From NCBI GenBank assembly GCA_022826345.1, contig JAJDVB010000036.1, positions 1 through 7,041 of the forward strand: DNA of 7,041 nucleotides, given 5' to 3'. The DNA comes from Alphaproteobacteria bacterium (GTDB lineage Bacteria > Pseudomonadota > Alphaproteobacteria > UBA828). Numbering within the stretch: position 1 is the first letter of the stretch; every line of letters begins with the position of its first letter. The position numbers and the translations under genes were made by a program. The notes beneath the pieces were generated by a model, which saw only the letters and a list, made by a program, of their open reading frames with translations, was not told where the DNA came from and made no database searches. Of the stretch, positions 1 to 7,041 are shown piece by piece.

Positions 1-24
1 TGATAGATTGCCGGTCCTCGGTAC

Positions 25-30
25 AGGAGG
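25..30 (+). promoter_or_regulatory. Shine-Dalgarno site of the transposase
   Basis: A perfect AGGAGG lies 8 bases before the ATG at 39, which fixes that start. The bases cctc at 16-19 could pair with gagg at 27-30 and partly hide the site, but a four-base stem is weak evidence for control. Confidence 0.75.
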
Positions 31-38
31 GTCCGGGC

Positions 39-515
39 ATGAAACGCTACGTGGTGACATTGGACGAAGCGGAAAGGGAACATTTGAAGGCGGTCGCGAA
101 CAAGGGCTCGCACCATTCGCAGAAGGTGATCAACGCGTTGATCCTGCTCAACTGCGACGCGGGGGACTTCAACGAGCGGCAGGCGACCGGGGAGGCCATC
201 GCGAACATTCTGCGGATCAGCATGCGCAAGGTGGACCGGGTCAAGAGGCGCTTCGTCGAGGATGGTCTCGAGGCGGCGCTGGGCGCCCGGCAGGGACGCC
301 GACCGACCTACTTGCGCAAGGCCGACGGCGAGTTCGAGGCACGCGTGGTTGCTCTGAGCTGCGGCGAGCCGCCGGAGGGCCGCGGCCAGTGGTCGCTGCG
401 GCTGCTGGCGGACCGCGCCGTGGAACTGGGCTACATCGACAGCGTGTCGCACGAGACGGTGCGGCGGGTTCTAAAAAAAACGAGATCAAGCCTTGGCGCC
501 GGGTCGGATGGGTAA
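39..515 (+). CDS. IS630 transposase frame-0 product (orfA)
   Basis: Without frameshifting, translation from ATG 39 ends at the TAA at 513-515 and makes a 158-residue protein. It contains the helix-turn-helix region and the linker but none of the DDE residues; its last 11 residues (after Lys147) are out-of-frame sequence. Such short products often bind the IS ends and act as inhibitors in two-frame elements, but that role is inferred here. The stop codon lies inside the loop of the stem-loop at 491-527. Confidence 0.7.
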   Translation: MKRYVVTLDEAEREHLKAVANKGSHHSQKVINALILLNCDAGDFNERQATGEAIANILRISMRKVDRVKRRFVEDGLEAALGARQGRRPTYLRKADGEFEARVVALSCGEPPEGRGQWSLRLLADRAVELGYIDSVSHETVRRVLKKTRSSLGAGSDG

Positions 516-1174
516 TCCCGGCGCAGGGCAACGCGGACTTCGCGGCGGCCATGGAGCAGGTGCTCGATGTATACCGGCGTCCCTACGACGAGGCCCATCC
601 CGTCGTGTGCATGGACGAGACGCCGCGCCAGTTGATCGGCGAGACGCGCGAGCCGGTCCCCGCCAAACCGGGCCGGCCGGGGCGGCACGACTACGAGTAC
701 CAGCGCTGCGGAACCTGCAACGTGTTCATGGCCACGGAGCCGTTGGCGGGCAAGCGCATGACCCTGGTGACCGAGCGCAAGACCAAGGTCGACTGGGCGA
801 ACTTCCTCGCCGACATTGCCGCGCACTACCCCGACGCCCGGAAGATCACCTTGGTGATGGACAATCTGAACACCCACCGCCCGGGCGCGCTCTACGAAGC
901 CTTCCCGCCGCCGCAGGCCAAGGCCCTTTGGGACCGGTTCGAGTTCGTCTTCACCCCCAAGCACGGCAGTTGGCTGAATGTCGCCGAGGTCGAACTCAAC
1001 GTCATGATCCGCCAATGCCTGAACCGACGCATCGACTCAATAGACATCCTGCGCAGCGAGGTCGCCGCCTGGCAGGCCGCCCGCGACCGCATCCGGGCCA
1101 AGGTCAACTGGCAGTTCACCGCCGCCGACGCACGCATCAAACTGAAACGTCTCTATCCGACATTTGATGCGTGA
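39..1174 (+). CDS. IS630-family DDE transposase, full-length product made by -1 frameshifting
   Basis: This enzyme cuts and rejoins the ends of its own IS630 element. Reading starts at ATG 39, continues in that frame to the A8 run at 473-480, then slips back one base and ends at the TGA at 1172-1174, giving 378 residues. The junction then reads RVLKKNEIKPWRR, the usual IS630 sequence at the link to the catalytic domain; neither frame alone gives it. The N-terminal part has a helix-turn-helix DNA-binding region at about residues 48-82. The catalytic triad is visible in the fused numbering: Asp193 (in CMDETP), Asp275 (in VMDNLNTH) and Glu317 (in SWLNVAE). The triad and C-terminus look intact, so the element may still be active. 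The alternative is a single-base mutation in a homopolymer, but slippage on A runs is known for IS630 elements and a stem-loop follows. Confidence 0.88.
473..527 (+). promoter_or_regulatory. Programmed -1 frameshift signal: A-run slippery site plus stem-loop
   Basis: The slippery heptamer A AAA AAA (473-479) sits with its two AAA codons in frame 0, within a run of eight A. Downstream, gcgccggg (496-503) pairs perfectly with cccggcgc (517-524), leaving a 13-base loop. An outer cct/agg pairing (491-493 with 525-527) across a two-base bulge lengthens the stem. The stem begins 11 bases after the heptamer with the outer pairs, or 16 without. That is a little longer than the usual 5-9 base spacer, so its stimulatory role is an inference. 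No clear upstream Shine-Dalgarno-like stimulator is seen. Confidence 0.7.
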
Positions 1175-2661
1175 CGCAACACTAGGGTTCCGCATTGCGC
1201 TAGCGCGGTATCTGGTAACTCCGCTGGTCGCTGGGTTACGAGCAAGAGTCCGACCCCGTACTTCCTGCCCTCTCGTGCAATCCTGTTTGCCGAGTCCCGA
1301 GTAATATTGCTCGCATTGTCACCCAAATACCGGTGTGCTTCTTCCAATACAACCAGAACTGGACTAGGACGTCCAATACCGGGGCCACCGTAGTCGCAGC
1401 GCAGTGAAACCTCAAGAATCAAATTGAGGACCACACCGATTGCTAGATCGGCAGCGACAGCCGGTACTCCACTAAAATCCAGGACCGAAACTGGGCTTGT
1501 ACGGCCTAACCAGGTATGCATGACATCGACCAAAGGGTCCGACCCGTTGGGATCGCCTGTCGGTTCCCGAAAAAACTGTAACCGTGGATCGAGTAGACCA
1601 AGACGCAAGAGGTCAGGAGTGGTTCCATAGGCTCCATGATTGGGACCCTTGTGCGGAGGTTGGCCGCCAGGGCCGTACGCCTGGAAAGTCGCTGGCCGTA
1701 GTGCAGTAGGATCGCCGTCATCAGTCCGACAGACTGTGGATGGGTCAGCGCGTACCTGACGAGTTTCGTTGTTTTCAATGTCCAACTGGTACCATACCCG
1801 GCGAATATCAAATGGGACTGGCGTATCGGATGTTACTGCACTCGGGTGAAGATCAAGCCAATTGGCAGATTCCGCAAATTCTCGGCGGTGCTGCGCTACA
1901 AGATCACTGAAGCGACTAAGAAAAGTTGGGCCGCCAGTGAGTCCAGCAAACGCGCGCATGATATCAGCGGCAGGTAATGCCCAATATGGCACACGCAACT
2001 GATTTTCGCCACTCTCCAGAACGCTCCTGATCGAAGCATGCTCGGACTTCGCCTGAGCGTACTCTCCGTGCGGATCGACAACAACTATATTGGAGGATCT
2101 CCATCCTCCACTAACGAACCCTTGCAGAAGGGTAGCAACAGTACTAGTTTTTCCAGAACCAGTGGAGCCTACGATGGCGGAATGGCGTACGACGAACCGC
2201 GACGCATCGACACAAACGGGAACCTCTTCAGCTGCAGCCATGCGACCGAGTCGAAGATGTTGGCTGTCAGGATTCGGGAATACGGTCTGAAGTTGATGTG
2301 CGGTCGCGAAATGTACCGGGTCATCTAACCCGGGATACGAACCGACACCTCGCTGGAAGCATCCGGTACCATGATCAATCTCGCCCAGCAACTGAACTTG
2401 GAGCCACCGTTCATCACGTTGAAGCGTTTCGACAGGCGTCATGGTTCCGGATAGCTCCGCAATACCGACTAGACTAACTGATGCGATTAAGTCAACTACT
2501 CCTTGGGGAATCCGAACTAGTGAACCAATCTGGCCAACGGGCTGAAGTCTTCCGCGGTAAATCGGCGCCGTACCAGCAAGGTCATCATCAAGCGCTACCG
2601 TCACGGTAGAGCCGAGAACATGCCGTATTTTTCCAATGCGGGTGGGGTCCTTCTCAGGCAT
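1153..2661 (-). pseudogene. herA: HerA-type ATPase of a SIR2-HerA defence system, 3' end cut by IS630
   Basis: This is the HerA/FtsK-like hexameric DNA-translocase subunit that assembles with SIR2 in Nezha-type anti-phage defence. From ATG 2661 it reads 502 residues. A HAS-barrel-like N-terminal region (RIGKIRHVLGSTV, about residues 8-90) comes first. Next are Walker A GSTGSGKT (165-172), Walker B with hydrophobic strand and double acid VLVVLEEAH (435-443), and the conserved sensor segment LLVTQRPAEL (473-482). The IS begins at codon 493; the last nine or ten residues and the stop are IS-derived, and the C-terminal segment normal in HerA proteins is absent. It starts one base after the sir2 stop, so it is co-transcribed and probably translationally coupled. 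An AGGA site 8 bases upstream supports this ATG over in-frame ATGs at 2685 and 2727. The ATPase core is complete, so a partly active product cannot be excluded, but loss of the C-terminus probably harms hexamer function. Confidence 0.88.
1175..1184. other. IS630 right junction with TA target inside herA
   Basis: The transposase ends at 1174, and HerA-like coding on the opposite strand is clear from about 1185 upward. TA at 1183-1184 falls in herA codon 493 (Leu) and is the only TA between these limits. IS630 duplicates TA on insertion, so a matching TA should border the missing left end. The sequence read inward from here (gtgttgcgtcacgc) is the expected place of the right terminal inverted repeat, but its left partner cannot be seen. 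Confidence 0.6.
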
Positions 2662-2662
2662 T

Positions 2663-3825
2663 CTAATCTTCCTGTGGTTGGACATCGCGTTCGGCAATAG
2701 CGTCCTGCAGCAACGCTCGCAGACCACTGTCTCCCTCGTATTTGTGACCCGTGCTTCGCGCTAGGTGCCTCGCTAAGCACCTAAAGTCAGTTAGTAGGAA
2801 TTCTCCGTCGGACCAAACAAGAGGTACGGCGACATCCGGTTCCGTCCAATTCCCTCGGATGCCTCCGATTACGGCTTCTCGTCTAGAAACTACTTGGAGA
2901 TTCGGCGTGAGTTCTGCACGTTCAGCCAATTCAATAGGAATGTCTGAGTGCACGAAAGCTATGAACTCAGAACGTTCACGCCGTGTAGCAGCGTCGAAGA
3001 TTAGCTCATTAAGGTGATCGTCGCTAAATGAGTAGCCGGAAATCAACATTAGTGTTTCAGGTTGATGAAGAGCACGCCTGAAGCGGTCTTGTAATACCAC
3101 AAATGGAACGCGCCGCGATTCGTCATATTTTGTATCTGAGGGATAAATCGCGGCCGGCAACCCTTCTGGTACTGCCTGTCCTAATCTCACTATCTGATTA
3201 TGGGTGTTCCAAATCCAATTGACCGAACCGTGCATCTTCCAAAGTCGTACAAGAAAGGACGGCATGACTTCGTCACCGAATCCTGGCAAAGACTCGACCA
3301 ATTCGGTGTGAAACCTAGCATTGAGGTTTCCGATGAAACCATCGAAATAAGGTACGCGCATCCGTTCCAACGCGGTTTCCACAAGAGGTCATAATTGACC
3401 GTAAACAATTCTACGGGAAGGTGGTAATTGGCCCTTGCCGCCCATCCCGCCAAGCAGATAACGGCGTCGTTATCGTCCGCGTTGGTGTTCAGTGCGATAA
3501 CGATTTGGCGACAGATTGTCTGGTCTAGTTCCTCTGCTTTTGCACGAGTTAGTCCATCTACGGTATCCTCGCCTGAGATTAGGGCTGAGATACGGCGTAT
3601 CCGACTCAAGGCACCTTCGAGATTGCGGCCTTGAAGTTGATGCTCTAAAGCGGCGCGGTTGTCGTCCGCTAGAGCATCCAAGACAATCCGTTGGAGACCG
3701 GTCACATCTGGAAGCCCGCACGCTCTACCGACTCCGGCCCCCAGGAAGAAGCAAACATGGCGAGAACGTGCCGCGAGCTTTGCGCCAAGTGCAGTTACGA
3801 ATTGTCGTGGTTCGTGCTCGGCCAT
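2663..3825 (-). pseudogene. sir2: SIR2-family NADase of a SIR2-HerA defence system, frameshifted
   Basis: SIR2 proteins in this context hydrolyse NAD+ when phage is sensed, stopping infection by abortive arrest. The first frame (ATG 3825) gives the nucleotide-binding motif LGAGVGRACGLPD (residues 28-40) and ends a conserved block with FTVNYDLL, including the catalytic-type Asn144-Tyr-Asp. After Leu148 this frame becomes nonsense. The frame one base back, entering at 3382 (GTG, Val), continues the family sequence VETALERMRVPYFDGF, then KMHGSVNW with the conserved His (about residue 199) and GYSFSDDHLNE (about 264-274). Restored length is about 387 residues, normal for these proteins. The lesion fits loss of one G in ttg-tgg near 3382-3385. 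No slippery heptamer is present there, so programmed shifting is unlikely; mutation or sequencing error remain. The gene is the first of the operon with herA and is lower in GC than the flanks. Confidence 0.9.
2670..2673 (-). promoter_or_regulatory. Shine-Dalgarno site of herA inside the end of sir2
   Basis: AGGA on the minus strand lies 8 bases before ATG 2661, within the last codons of sir2. The sir2 stop TAG (2665-2663) and the herA ATG are separated by one base, the classic arrangement for coupled translation. This site decides the herA start. Confidence 0.6.
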
Positions 3826-3831
3826 TGATAA

Positions 3832-3835
3832 TCCT
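3832..3835 (-). promoter_or_regulatory. Shine-Dalgarno site of sir2
   Basis: AGGA on the minus strand lies 6 bases before ATG 3825 and supports that start, which also places the GAG motif about 30 residues in, as expected for the family. Confidence 0.6.
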
Positions 3836-4101
3836 GAAAGAGTGCCGCTAGTGATGGAGGGGAGCGACGGGCTTTGAGAAGGAAGTCCAATTGGTCATGG
3901 TCGAGAGTATAAGCTACCATCCAATGGAGCATGAGGCAAGTGGGGCGGCGGTCTTGGGTGCAGGCTAGCTTCGGAAGTACGGACCATCCTGAGATAAGCA
4001 TCGGTTGATGTTGGGGACTGAAGCGCCTATCGAATGTGACGGGCTCTTGGTGCGCAGGGTAGTGCGTGGTTTGGGGCCTGGTCACCGCTCCGGGTACGTA
4101 G

Positions 4102-4380
4102 CGGAGCGACAAGACGACGATTGCCTACAGAGGCTGGGGCGGGAGTGCCCGTGTCTTGATCTTCGGCCGAAACTGGAGAGCCCCGACGAATCTCGAGCTG
4201 ATCGCCGAGCGGGAGGCCCTGACGCGGAGATCGATTCCATGCTCGTTCGCGGGCAAAGATGGCAAAGTGTAGAGGTCAAGCGAATGAGCGCACTCAAGAT
4301 GACGCCGTCAGTCCGCTCGGCACAAATGAACCTCCTGTACGCGGGCTGGTGCGACTTTGACCTAGAGTGGCTGCCCGCCT
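4102..4380 (+). pseudogene. Possible remnant of an APP1-like phosphatidate phosphatase gene
   Basis: Without a start codon, the frame from 4102 to the stop at 4270-4272 reads TTIAYRGWGGSARVLIFGR. This resembles the N-terminal I-x-YRG-x-G...R-x-x-x-x-GR signature upstream of the catalytic domain in bacterial APP1 (DUF2183) proteins. About 70 bases further on, in the frame one base back, GWCDFDLEWLP resembles the later tryptophan-plus-beta-strand segment of the same region. No DxDxT catalytic motif follows. If right, this is a heavily decayed 5' fragment with at least one frameshift. It is a weak match from memory of the family; it could be chance. Confidence 0.25.
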
Positions 4381-4522
4381 CCCGGCCCGGTCGGCGAGCG
4401 CTACCTCCGAGACGCCGAAGATCGCGCAGAATGCCGGATGAACCCGAAGCCAGAGAATCTACAACCCGATCTGTTCGAGTGCGCGGGTCTCAAACTTGGC
4501 GTCGGGCGCGCAATCGTGGCGG

Positions 4523-4750
4523 TCAGATCTTGGTGAGCGCGGCCTTGAACTCTTCTCGAGAGACTCCCGCCTGCTTCAACACACCTGACAACGTGCCGGT
4601 CTTGATCTCGCGGTGGATGGGCACGACGCAGCCCGCCGAACCCTGCCGCATGACGACATGGCTTCCCCTCTGGCGCACTGCCGTGAATCCAAGCGATTCG
4701 AGAGCGCGAATCGCGTCTCGCCCCGAAATACGGGGCAAGCTACGCGGCAT
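4523..4750 (-). CDS. hicA: HicA family mRNA-interferase toxin
   Basis: HicA toxins cleave mRNA and stop translation until neutralised by HicB. The protein has 75 residues, a normal length for this double-stranded-RNA-binding-like fold. It shows the family pattern in order: SGRDAIRALESLGF near residues 9-22, then RQRGSHVVMR with the catalytic His31, then CVVPIHREIKTGTLSGVLKQ (41-60), and a basic-acidic C-terminal helix. ATG 4750 lies 11 bases inside the 3' end of hicB, so the pair is co-transcribed and toxin translation probably depends on translation of the antitoxin. No good Shine-Dalgarno site precedes it, which fits coupling. All key residues are present, so it looks functional. Confidence 0.9.
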   Translation of the reverse strand: MPRSLPRISGRDAIRALESLGFTAVRQRGSHVVMRQGSAGCVVPIHREIKTGTLSGVLKQAGVSREEFKAALTKI

Positions 4751-4961
4751 GCGGGTGGACTTCGATGGTCGTCAGCAGCGGCTTGCCGTACGATGCCAGC
4801 GGAAATTCTTCAAGGTAGAGTTCGGTCGCTTCTTGGAGATTCGCCAAGGCTTCCTCGATGTTTTCGCCCTGAGACGTACTACCGGTTTCCGGATTCATCG
4901 CGATGAATCCGCCTTCCTCGGCGGGCAGGAGCACGGCTGTCAGCTGCATGGGTTTCACCAT
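4740..4961 (-). CDS. hicB: Short HicB family antitoxin
   Basis: HicB binds and inhibits HicA and usually helps repress the operon. The 73-residue product shows the short HicB pattern: a beta strand MQLTAVLLPAEEGGFIA (residues 5-21), then the conserved helix segment SQGENIEEALANLQEATELY (30-49). It lacks the C-terminal DNA-binding domain of long HicB proteins, so any autoregulation would need the short fold itself. The ATG at 4949 (residue 5) begins exactly where many relatives begin and is a real alternative to ATG 4961. It is the first gene of the pair; the antitoxin-first order differs from the E. coli hicAB order but is common. Confidence 0.87.
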   Translation of the reverse strand: MVKPMQLTAVLLPAEEGGFIAMNPETGSTSQGENIEEALANLQEATELYLEEFPLASYGKPLLTTIEVHPHAA

Positions 4962-5319
4962 CGTCGGCCTGGATCAACAGGCCGAGCGTACCACGCGCAG
5001 GGGGCCGGCGCCGCCGACCATTCTCCCGGTCGCCGTGGCTGCGGATTGACTACCGTCACGACGCGGGACCACCGAGTCAGCTAGTATCGGCGGAGCGCGG
5101 CTGTCCGGTGCCGGGAACGGCGATGGACGGAATCTGCTGGCGGGAATTCTGACTGACTGTTCGTGCACGGAGCCTCTGCCACTGTAGGATGGCCCGTGGC
5201 GATGGGCGACAGCACGGACTCGGCCCCGGTCATCGCCCGCACGCCTTGTATCGGTTCTTGTAGAACCGCGGACACGGCAGTCGTGTGCGAGCGAACGGCC
5301 CCCATTTGCGCTACCAACG
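4962..5319. other. Divergent intergenic region between hicB and the phosphoesterase
   Basis: This 358-base stretch separates the leftward hicBA pair from the rightward phosphoesterase, so it should hold both promoters. I see no convincing -35/-10 pair on either strand and no coding stretch with recognisable family sequence; the open frames here look like chance openings in GC-rich DNA. Its one clear element is the palindrome at 5252-5268. Confidence 0.5.
5252..5268. repeat. Perfect 7-base inverted repeat with 3-base spacer
   Basis: cggttct (5252-5258) and agaaccg (5262-5268) are exact inverse complements around tgt. It lies about 50 bases before the phosphoesterase start, where an operator for a dimeric regulator could sit. 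There is no T tract on either strand, so it is not a typical terminator. No regulator gene is adjacent in this window. Confidence 0.5.
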
Positions 5320-6099
5320 ATGAAGATCCAGGTCCTCTCCGACCTCCACATTGAGCATGGTGGCCCGGTGCCGGAGCACCACCCCGAGGCTGACGTCATT
5401 GTCCTCGCCGGCGACCTCGCGCCGTACACGAAGGGACTTGTGGCGAAGCTCTCGGAGTTCTGGGCGTCCGCCCCGCACATCGTCTACGTCCTCGGCAACC
5501 ACGAGTTCTACGGCACGGAGATCGACGACGCGAGGGCGGGACTCGCCGAGGAGTGCGCGGAAGTCGGCATCCACCTCCTCGACCCCGGTACGGTCCGGAT
5601 CGAGGGCACCCGCTTCGTTGGGGCAACCCTGTGGACGGATCTGGAACTCTACGGCAAGGCCGATGAGATTGGGGCACACCGACGGCTGCGCCGGGGCATA
5701 TCGGACTTCGCGGGCGCGATTCGACACCGGGGGCGGCACTTCAGCACGCGGGAGTCTGTCCGACGGCATCGGGCCGCCCGGCACTTCATCGAGGAACAGC
5801 TCGCACGGGCGGAGCTTGCCGGTGAACGAGTGGTGGTAATCACGCATCACGCGCCGAGCCGGCGATCGATCCGGCGGTGGTTCCAGGGCGATCCGTTGAA
5901 CCCGGCGTTCGCCTCCGACCTGGACCGGCTGATCGAGCGGTACCAGCCCGCACTCTGGGTCCACGGTCACATGCACGATCCGGTTGATGAGCGGCTCGGG
6001 AAAACGAGAATCGTCGCCAACCCGGCCGGGTACGCGCACGAGCGGAAGCGGGGATTCAACCCGGCGCTCTGCATCGATCTCGACGCGCCGGAGACATGA
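5320..6099 (+). CDS. Calcineurin-like metallophosphoesterase
   Basis: A 259-residue cytosolic hydrolase of the two-metal metallophosphoesterase superfamily; the substrate cannot be told from sequence. The metal-binding motifs are all present and in order: DLH with Asp8 and His10, GD with Asp32, GNHE with Asn60 and His61, THH with His176-His177, and GHMH with His217 and His219 preceded by His215. There is no signal peptide or membrane segment. The core length matches stand-alone members of the family. ATG 5320 places Asp8 just after the first beta strand, as is usual, though no clear Shine-Dalgarno site precedes it. It is a monocistronic gene, divergent from hicBA and convergent with the DUF4143 ATPase. 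GC content is high, like the rightmost gene and unlike the sir2-herA block. Confidence 0.9.
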   Translation: MKIQVLSDLHIEHGGPVPEHHPEADVIVLAGDLAPYTKGLVAKLSEFWASAPHIVYVLGNHEFYGTEIDDARAGLAEECAEVGIHLLDPGTVRIEGTRFVGATLWTDLELYGKADEIGAHRRLRRGISDFAGAIRHRGRHFSTRESVRRHRAARHFIEEQLARAELAGERVVVITHHAPSRRSIRRWFQGDPLNPAFASDLDRLIERYQPALWVHGHMHDPVDERLGKTRIVANPAGYAHERKRGFNPALCIDLDAPET

Positions 6100-6146
6100 G
6101 CGCGGTTGCTCGTGACTCTGCCACTCTGCGTCTCCGAAACGACACT

Positions 6147-6171
6147 CCCGTTTCCCGGATACTCGGGCGGG
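6147..6171. terminator. Possible hairpin between convergent genes
   Basis: cccg-ttt-cccg (6147-6157) can pair with cgggcggg (6164-6171) around a six-base loop, with a three-base bulge. It lies in the 82-base gap between the two convergent stop codons. There is no T run after it, so an intrinsic terminator is not established; it may simply be a GC-rich stem. A second small stem, ctgacc (6177-6182) with ggtcag (6191-6196), overlaps the end of the ATPase gene. Confidence 0.25.
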
Positions 6172-6181
6172 TATGTCTGAC

Positions 6182-7041
6182 CTACAGCCGGGTCAGCAGA
6201 CCTCGATCGGGGGTGGTCTGGCGGAGGAAGTCGGCGACCGGAAGGCACCAGATGTCGTCGATCCGCAAGCGTTCGGACCCGCGATAGAGCACGGCCGTCT
6301 CCGCTTCGGGGTAGTCCGCCCGAAACGACCGCAGCGCACGCAGGTCAGCGGAATGCACCCTGCGGGCGTTCTTGACCTCGAACGCCTGAAGCCCCGACTC
6401 GCCGTAGACGACGAAATCGACCTCGGCCCCTGCACGTGTCCGCCAGAAGAAGAGCTCCGCGTCGTTCCGGGAATATGCGGCCCAGGCGCGGAGATGCTGG
6501 GCCACGAGCCCTTCAAGCGCCTGACCGTCCATCTCCTCGGGGCGGTCGAGTGGCCCCTTGGGGCGGAGCGAACGGAACACGCCGGCATCGAACAGGTAGA
6601 TCTTCTCGTGCGCGACGGTCGCGCGCTTGGCGCGTTTGCGGAAGACCGGCAGGCGGAAGGCGAGCAACAGATCCTCGAGGATCCCGACGTACCCCGCGAC
6701 TACCTTGCGCTCGACCTGGCATTCCCTCGCGACCGCGGCGACGTTGAGCTGCGCGCCGTGGGAAAAGCTCACCGATTCCAGGAACCTGGTGAATCCGCTG
6801 ACGTTGCGGGTGAGACCTTCCGCCCGTACCTCCTGGTCCAGGTACAGGCTCGCATAGGCGTCGAGGACATCCGACGGATCGGGCGCACCCATCACCAGGG
6901 GCAGCATTCCGATTCGGAGCGACCGATCGAGGTCGAACTCCGGCAGCTCCGCGGCCAGGAAGGGATGCATGGTGCGGTGGACGGCCCGGCCTCCCAGCAG
7001 GTCCACCCCGCCCCGCCGGAGCTTTCGGGCGCTCGAACCCG
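6182..7041 (-). CDS. AAA_14/DUF4143-family ATPase, 5' end beyond the window
   Basis: The visible 285 residues are the C-terminal part of an archaeal-type AAA ATPase with a DUF4143 domain. The open frame continues to the window edge, and its first residues GSSARKLRRGGVDLLGGRA are the conserved segment just after the ATPase core. The real start and the Walker motifs therefore lie to the right, and the in-frame GTG at 7006 is internal. A helical/winged-helix-like middle (about visible residues 95-130) precedes EKIYLFDAGVFRSL (145-158). The C-terminal domain has a PD-(D/E)xK-like pattern, FFWRTRAGAEVDFVV followed by FEVKN (Asp208, Glu221, Lys223 in visible numbering). The physiological role of these proteins is poorly known; many copies occur per genome, often in accessory regions. 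The gene is convergent with the phosphoesterase. Confidence 0.88.
   Translation of the reverse strand, partial: GSSARKLRRGGVDLLGGRAVHRTMHPFLAAELPEFDLDRSLRIGMLPLVMGAPDPSDVLDAYASLYLDQEVRAEGLTRNVSGFTRFLESVSFSHGAQLNVAAVARECQVERKVVAGYVGILEDLLLAFRLPVFRKRAKRATVAHEKIYLFDAGVFRSLRPKGPLDRPEEMDGQALEGLVAQHLRAWAAYSRNDAELFFWRTRAGAEVDFVVYGESGLQAFEVKNARRVHSADLRALRSFRADYPEAETAVLYRGSERLRIDDIWCLPVADFLRQTTPDRGLLTRL

Follow-up and report, generated by a model that had tools for sequence, protein, structure and literature searches.

The closest described systems are the SIR2-HerA (Nezha) phage-defence modules, in which an intact SIR2 and an intact HerA would form a large complex that degrades NAD+ upon phage infection. 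In the Nezha system of Vibrio cholerae, immunity was lost when either of the SIR2 active-site residues was mutated, and deletion of herA led to more plaquing by ICP1_2001_A, ICP1_2004_A and ICP3 (PMC11559045). A further report describes binding between a Sir2 dodecamer and a HerA hexamer (PMC12198126).

The window, i.e., the whole stretch of DNA analysed here, appears to be a whole metagenome contig of 7,041 bases, taken as assembled sequence. It carries a sir2 and a herA gene, both on the minus strand and with a single base between them (sir2 stop codon 2663-2665, herA ATG 2661-2659); the contig edge falls inside an IS630-type element, and herA after residue 493 lies outside the contig. The features are as follows:

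1..1182, plus strand: IS630-type element, with one terminus only, the other end lying beyond the contig
39..1174, plus strand: transposase read in two frames, its HTH part spanning 39-515 and its DDE_3 part reaching 1174; an A-run occupies 473-480
1183..1184: TA where herA meets the IS
From the ATG at 2661-2659 downwards, minus strand: herA, residues 1-493 of about 587 (1183..2661), with DUF87 and HerA_C
2663-3825, minus strand: sir2, read in two frames
3382..3825, minus strand: N-part of sir2, family residues 1-148, with GAG and NYD
2663..3382, minus strand: C-part of sir2 in the other frame, family residues 149-387, with HGS; Pfam SIR2_2
3380..3390, minus strand: break in the sir2 frame, confined to residues 146-149

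Beyond the operon, a HicA toxin family gene (PF07927) occupies 4523-4961 on the minus strand and overlaps a small upstream gene whose DUF7387 match falls just under the cut-off and which is HicB-like by position; the two are likely a toxin-antitoxin pair adjoining the defence operon. They are followed by a metallophosphoesterase gene (5320-6099) and by a DUF4143 gene that is truncated at the edge of the contig (6182-7041), whose products match the PADLOC candidate profiles PDC-S10 and PDC-S01. None of the four ORF pieces between 3879 and 4520, two of which share a frame, matched Pfam. A search for sigma-70-like promoters over 1100-5100 was negative (mean expected by chance 1.9), as was one for Rfam families at gathering score.

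Both halves of sir2 matched the PADLOC SIR2 profile PDLC04093 over consecutive portions, the N-part ORF (3190-3825) at profile positions 1-162 (E 3.1e-31) and the C-part ORF (2663-3382) at positions 163-389 (E 2.5e-65), and HerA matched PDLC04105 (E 5.3e-98). In a search of PDB sequences, the top match was a chain of 8w9l for both sir2 parts and a chain of 8wiv for HerA; the matched SIR2 and HerA chains occur together in entries 8wld, 8woc, 8wod and 8wof, which are therefore SIR2-HerA complexes. The SIR2 motifs were found at residues 29 (GAG), 144 (NYD) and 51 of the C-part, equivalent to 199 in family numbering (HGS). Both the active-site Asn and the active-site His are thus retained and can be aligned with the solved SIR2, each lying in a different reading frame. 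HerA carries GSTGSGKT (residue 165) and VVLEEAH (437), which we take to be its Walker A and Walker B motifs. Among the membership features of SIR2-HerA (Nezha), the HerA nucleotide-binding region is present, and a complete SIR2 open frame and a complete HerA are both absent. A predicted HerA model, made for the protein P0001, had a mean pLDDT of 58.3, the values falling below 50 in residues 1-159 and 512-587. The sequence-only reading had described sir2 followed by herA on one strand and one base apart, with the SIR2 and HerA motifs, as a Nezha-type system: coordinates and PADLOC matches agree on the arrangement, all motifs were located in the translations (their Walker designation being assumed), and the profile and PDB sequence matches of both proteins bear out the family.

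The nearest full-length SIR2 relative (P0122, about 85%) aligns with the N-part over its residues 1-148 and with the C-part over 149-387. Since the open stretch of the second frame begins at residue 146 and the alignment to P0122 switches at 148/149, the break lies within residues 146-149, between the active-site Asn (NYD, 144) and His (HGS, 199); past it, the N-part ORF continues to 3190 in a non-homologous frame. A tandem copy of about 20 residues was seen in another SIR2 C-part (P0128), where it may be a second lesion or may stem from faulty assembly.

In HerA, the family match gives way at QCGTL, which ends at residue 493 (position 1183). QCGT is present in 118 of the 120 best listed HerA relatives, with QSGT or QVGT in the other two; in 94 of these 120 its first residue is number 489, the position it also has in the window. 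BLAST pairing extends weakly for seven residues past 493, to residue 500, in 109 of the 120 best listed relatives; this extension was discounted because the DNA encoding it belongs to the IS. On the other side of the junction, the DNA similarity of IS630 relatives to the window reaches 1184-1187 (five plasmid matches, H1-H3, H6 and H8), and four of the plasmid relatives share near-identical last bases ahead of TA, which together place the IS terminus at 1182, beside the TA at 1183-1184. A simple IS insertion at the TA in codon 493, rather than an insertion accompanied by a deletion, is the presumed event. HerA lacks the last 94 of its 587 residues, most of which align with the solved helicase and 36 of which are shared by 98% or more of 119 relatives. 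The lesions had been proposed as a single break in the sir2 frame and an interruption of herA by an IS, and both proposals held: the two sir2 parts lie in different frames and, once joined, align end to end with a SIR2 homologue (1-148 and 149-387 of P0122), herA stops at IS630 DNA of which one end is visible, and the two lesions, each located by alignment, are separate.

The IS630 assignment rests on a DDE_3 transposase with an HTH part and on the TA next to the terminus, found at the right end only. The transposase changes frame at the A-run 473-480, where A_AAA_AAA stands in frame. In four plasmid relatives the A-run is 7 long, against 8 in the window, and the annotated lengths of the plasmid relatives' transposases, 1133 or 1130 bases, are not multiples of three. 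Given the shared A-run, these lengths and the in-frame A_AAA_AAA, we read the frame change as normal programmed frameshifting and not as a third lesion, and the element could be active.

Scanning of genomes yielded 398 confirmed relatives, of which the best 80 were kept by a ranking that favours intact copies. Among these best 80 of 398 loci, herA lies directly downstream of sir2 in 76; three of the four exceptions end at a contig edge (L029, L043 and L051), and the fourth is a sir2 fragment without herA (L039). Apparent breaks, some of which may be sequencing errors, were found in the aligned stretches of six of the best 80 loci, stops at the very end of a match (L020, L045 and L075) being left out: in herA in L005, L018, L030 and L057, twice in sir2 in L036, and in L039. 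Five of the six fall among the first 39 loci (44-72% identity). The HerA closest to that of the window among the best 80 loci (77.8%) belongs to L036, from a Candidatus Binatia MAG, whose sir2 is also frame-broken, at two positions other than that of the window, and whose herA is intact; no IS630 transposase match was found in this stretch at E up to 1e-6.

A further relative is represented by an N-part of 153 residues (P0248), a C-part of 234 residues (P0229) and a HerA of 600 residues (P0037), each from a contig of 420433 bases, which, judged by this shared length alone, is probably one and the same contig, with sir2 split near the residue at which it is split in the window and with a full-length HerA. 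This gives a mild hint against a one-off accident, in that such a split may sometimes persist, but a single case does not establish that split forms are retained, and across the larger set the break points are scattered.

Several SIR2 N-fragments seemed to end near residue 149, and a break hot spot there was considered and dropped for want of a significant excess. Among the best 120 of 229 matches, 43 fragments, including that of the window and perhaps some contig ends, had a tail of at least 3 non-homologous residues, with break points running from 132 to 315. In this same set of matches, 4 of the 23 breaks in 130-200 fall in 144-154 (P = 0.49), or 3 of 22 when the window is omitted (P = 0.69); admitting tails of at least 2 residues, which adds P0246 and P0248 at 151, gives 6 of 27 (P = 0.23), and tails of at least 1 residue give 6 of 28 (P = 0.26).

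Both disruptions are present in the assembled sequence, and both genes are conserved up to their break points. Of the columns conserved to 95% or more, the window deviates at 3 of 143 in SIR2 and 5 of 243 in HerA, as compared with 3, 2 and 1 (SIR2) and 5, 4 and 1 (HerA) deviations in three near full-length relatives; because such deviations are about as few as in intact relatives, the genes were under constraint until recently, and the damage is probably recent. Where conservation is complete, the window deviates at 2 of 89 columns in SIR2 and 1 of 114 in HerA, all mildly, against none in each of the three near relatives. This is at most a slight sign of relaxation, of the kind that a brief period free of constraint would leave.

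The module has a G+C content of 53.4%, compared with 66.9% in the flank 5001-7041. This gap of 0.135, measured on a one-sided flank of 2 kb, exceeds that of all 35 relatives compared (median 0.043, largest 0.122), whose flanks were taken from both sides where present; 38 loci had been looked at, L029 being excluded as lacking herA, and L016 and L017 as having flanks under 2 kb. Likewise, GC3 is 0.48-0.53 in the module and 0.83-0.84 in the phosphoesterase, transposase and DUF4143 genes. The low G+C of the module suggests its recent acquisition by a G+C-rich bacterium. SIR2 relatives also occur on plasmids, where 33 of 364 matching records cover at least 80% of the query (64.5% identity for the first listed), and one scan of viral contigs found no relative. 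In the phylum of genome G001, 9 of 395 genomes have a SIR2 relative, identities outside G001 itself being 55% at best (over about 105 residues) and otherwise 31-37%. For the neighbouring phosphoesterase, 3 of 198 genomes gave a match, the best at 46%, and G001 was not among them.

The account that we consider probable is that a SIR2-HerA (Nezha-type) abortive-infection operon was recently acquired by a G+C-rich bacterium and that both of its genes were recently broken, sir2 by a net frame change that would have split it between its two active-site residues, and herA by an IS630-type element that would have inserted at the TA in codon 493 and cut off the last 94 residues. Neither a complete SIR2 nor a complete HerA would then be made, and the system would most likely be dead. 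The sequence-only reading had taken the system to be inactive, which is likely because the active-site residues are divided over two frames and HerA is without 94 of its 587 residues; the V. cholerae mutants described in PMC11559045 also speak for it. A working SIR2 produced from the split gene, either as two polypeptides or through ribosomal frameshifting, seems highly improbable: the contig of 420433 bases seems to show the same arrangement with a full-length HerA, but no classical slippery heptamer occurs in the sir2 N frame at the break, whereas the IS transposase has one, break points in SIR2 N-fragments are scattered over residues 132-315, and HerA is truncated anyway. We give equally little credence to the idea that a SIR2 split between Asn and His recurs as a two-piece form kept as a tamed or regulated NADase and not as junk.

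An error of assembly or sequencing might also have produced the sir2 break, leaving herA alone truly broken, by the IS. The window being a single metagenome contig and the sir2 parts being otherwise conserved lend this some support, but it appears unlikely, given that no homopolymer longer than 3 occurs within about 10 codons of the break and that a 232-residue C-part identical to that of the window, with an internal Met start (P0121, three members), comes from a contig that is 3454 bases long and may represent another assembly of the window's strain, which hints that the break exists in that assembly too. As to the cause of a recent double loss, selection might have removed a costly or self-toxic defence after a fall in phage pressure, as the sequence-only reading proposed, a view that draws on the two separate lesions in one operon and on the plausible autoimmunity cost of NADase defence systems. 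Once the first gene was lost, however, the second was free to decay, so that a double lesion does not call for selection; if a module that had only just been acquired was recently lost by neutral processes, the facts are accounted for equally well, and we regard selection, as opposed to chance loss, as a rather unlikely explanation.

The locus is an ordinary case of defence-gene loss in a known kind of two-gene phage-defence system. It offers one more snapshot of defence-gene turnover, in which the module looks foreign, its residues are conserved and two lesions are already present, and it warns that dead operons may be counted when the presence of defence systems is called solely on the basis of gene profiles.

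Compared with known elements, the IS resembles ISPna1-like IS630 elements of Polaromonas and Caballeronia plasmids in a transposase length that is not a multiple of three, in the A-run and in the last bases before TA, and differs from them in DNA identity (72.0-75.5% in the four looked at) and in having one end visible. The operon is likened to the Nezha system of V. cholerae A103 from its description in PMC11559045, not by sequence. With SIR2-HerA / Nezha, as represented by 8wld, 8woc, 8wod and 8wof, it has in common the gene order, the adjacency, the best PDB matches, the Asn and His and the HerA nucleotide-binding motifs; it differs in its broken sir2 frame and in a herA cut after about residue 493, and is most likely a SIR2-HerA (Nezha) remnant, a non-working member of the family.
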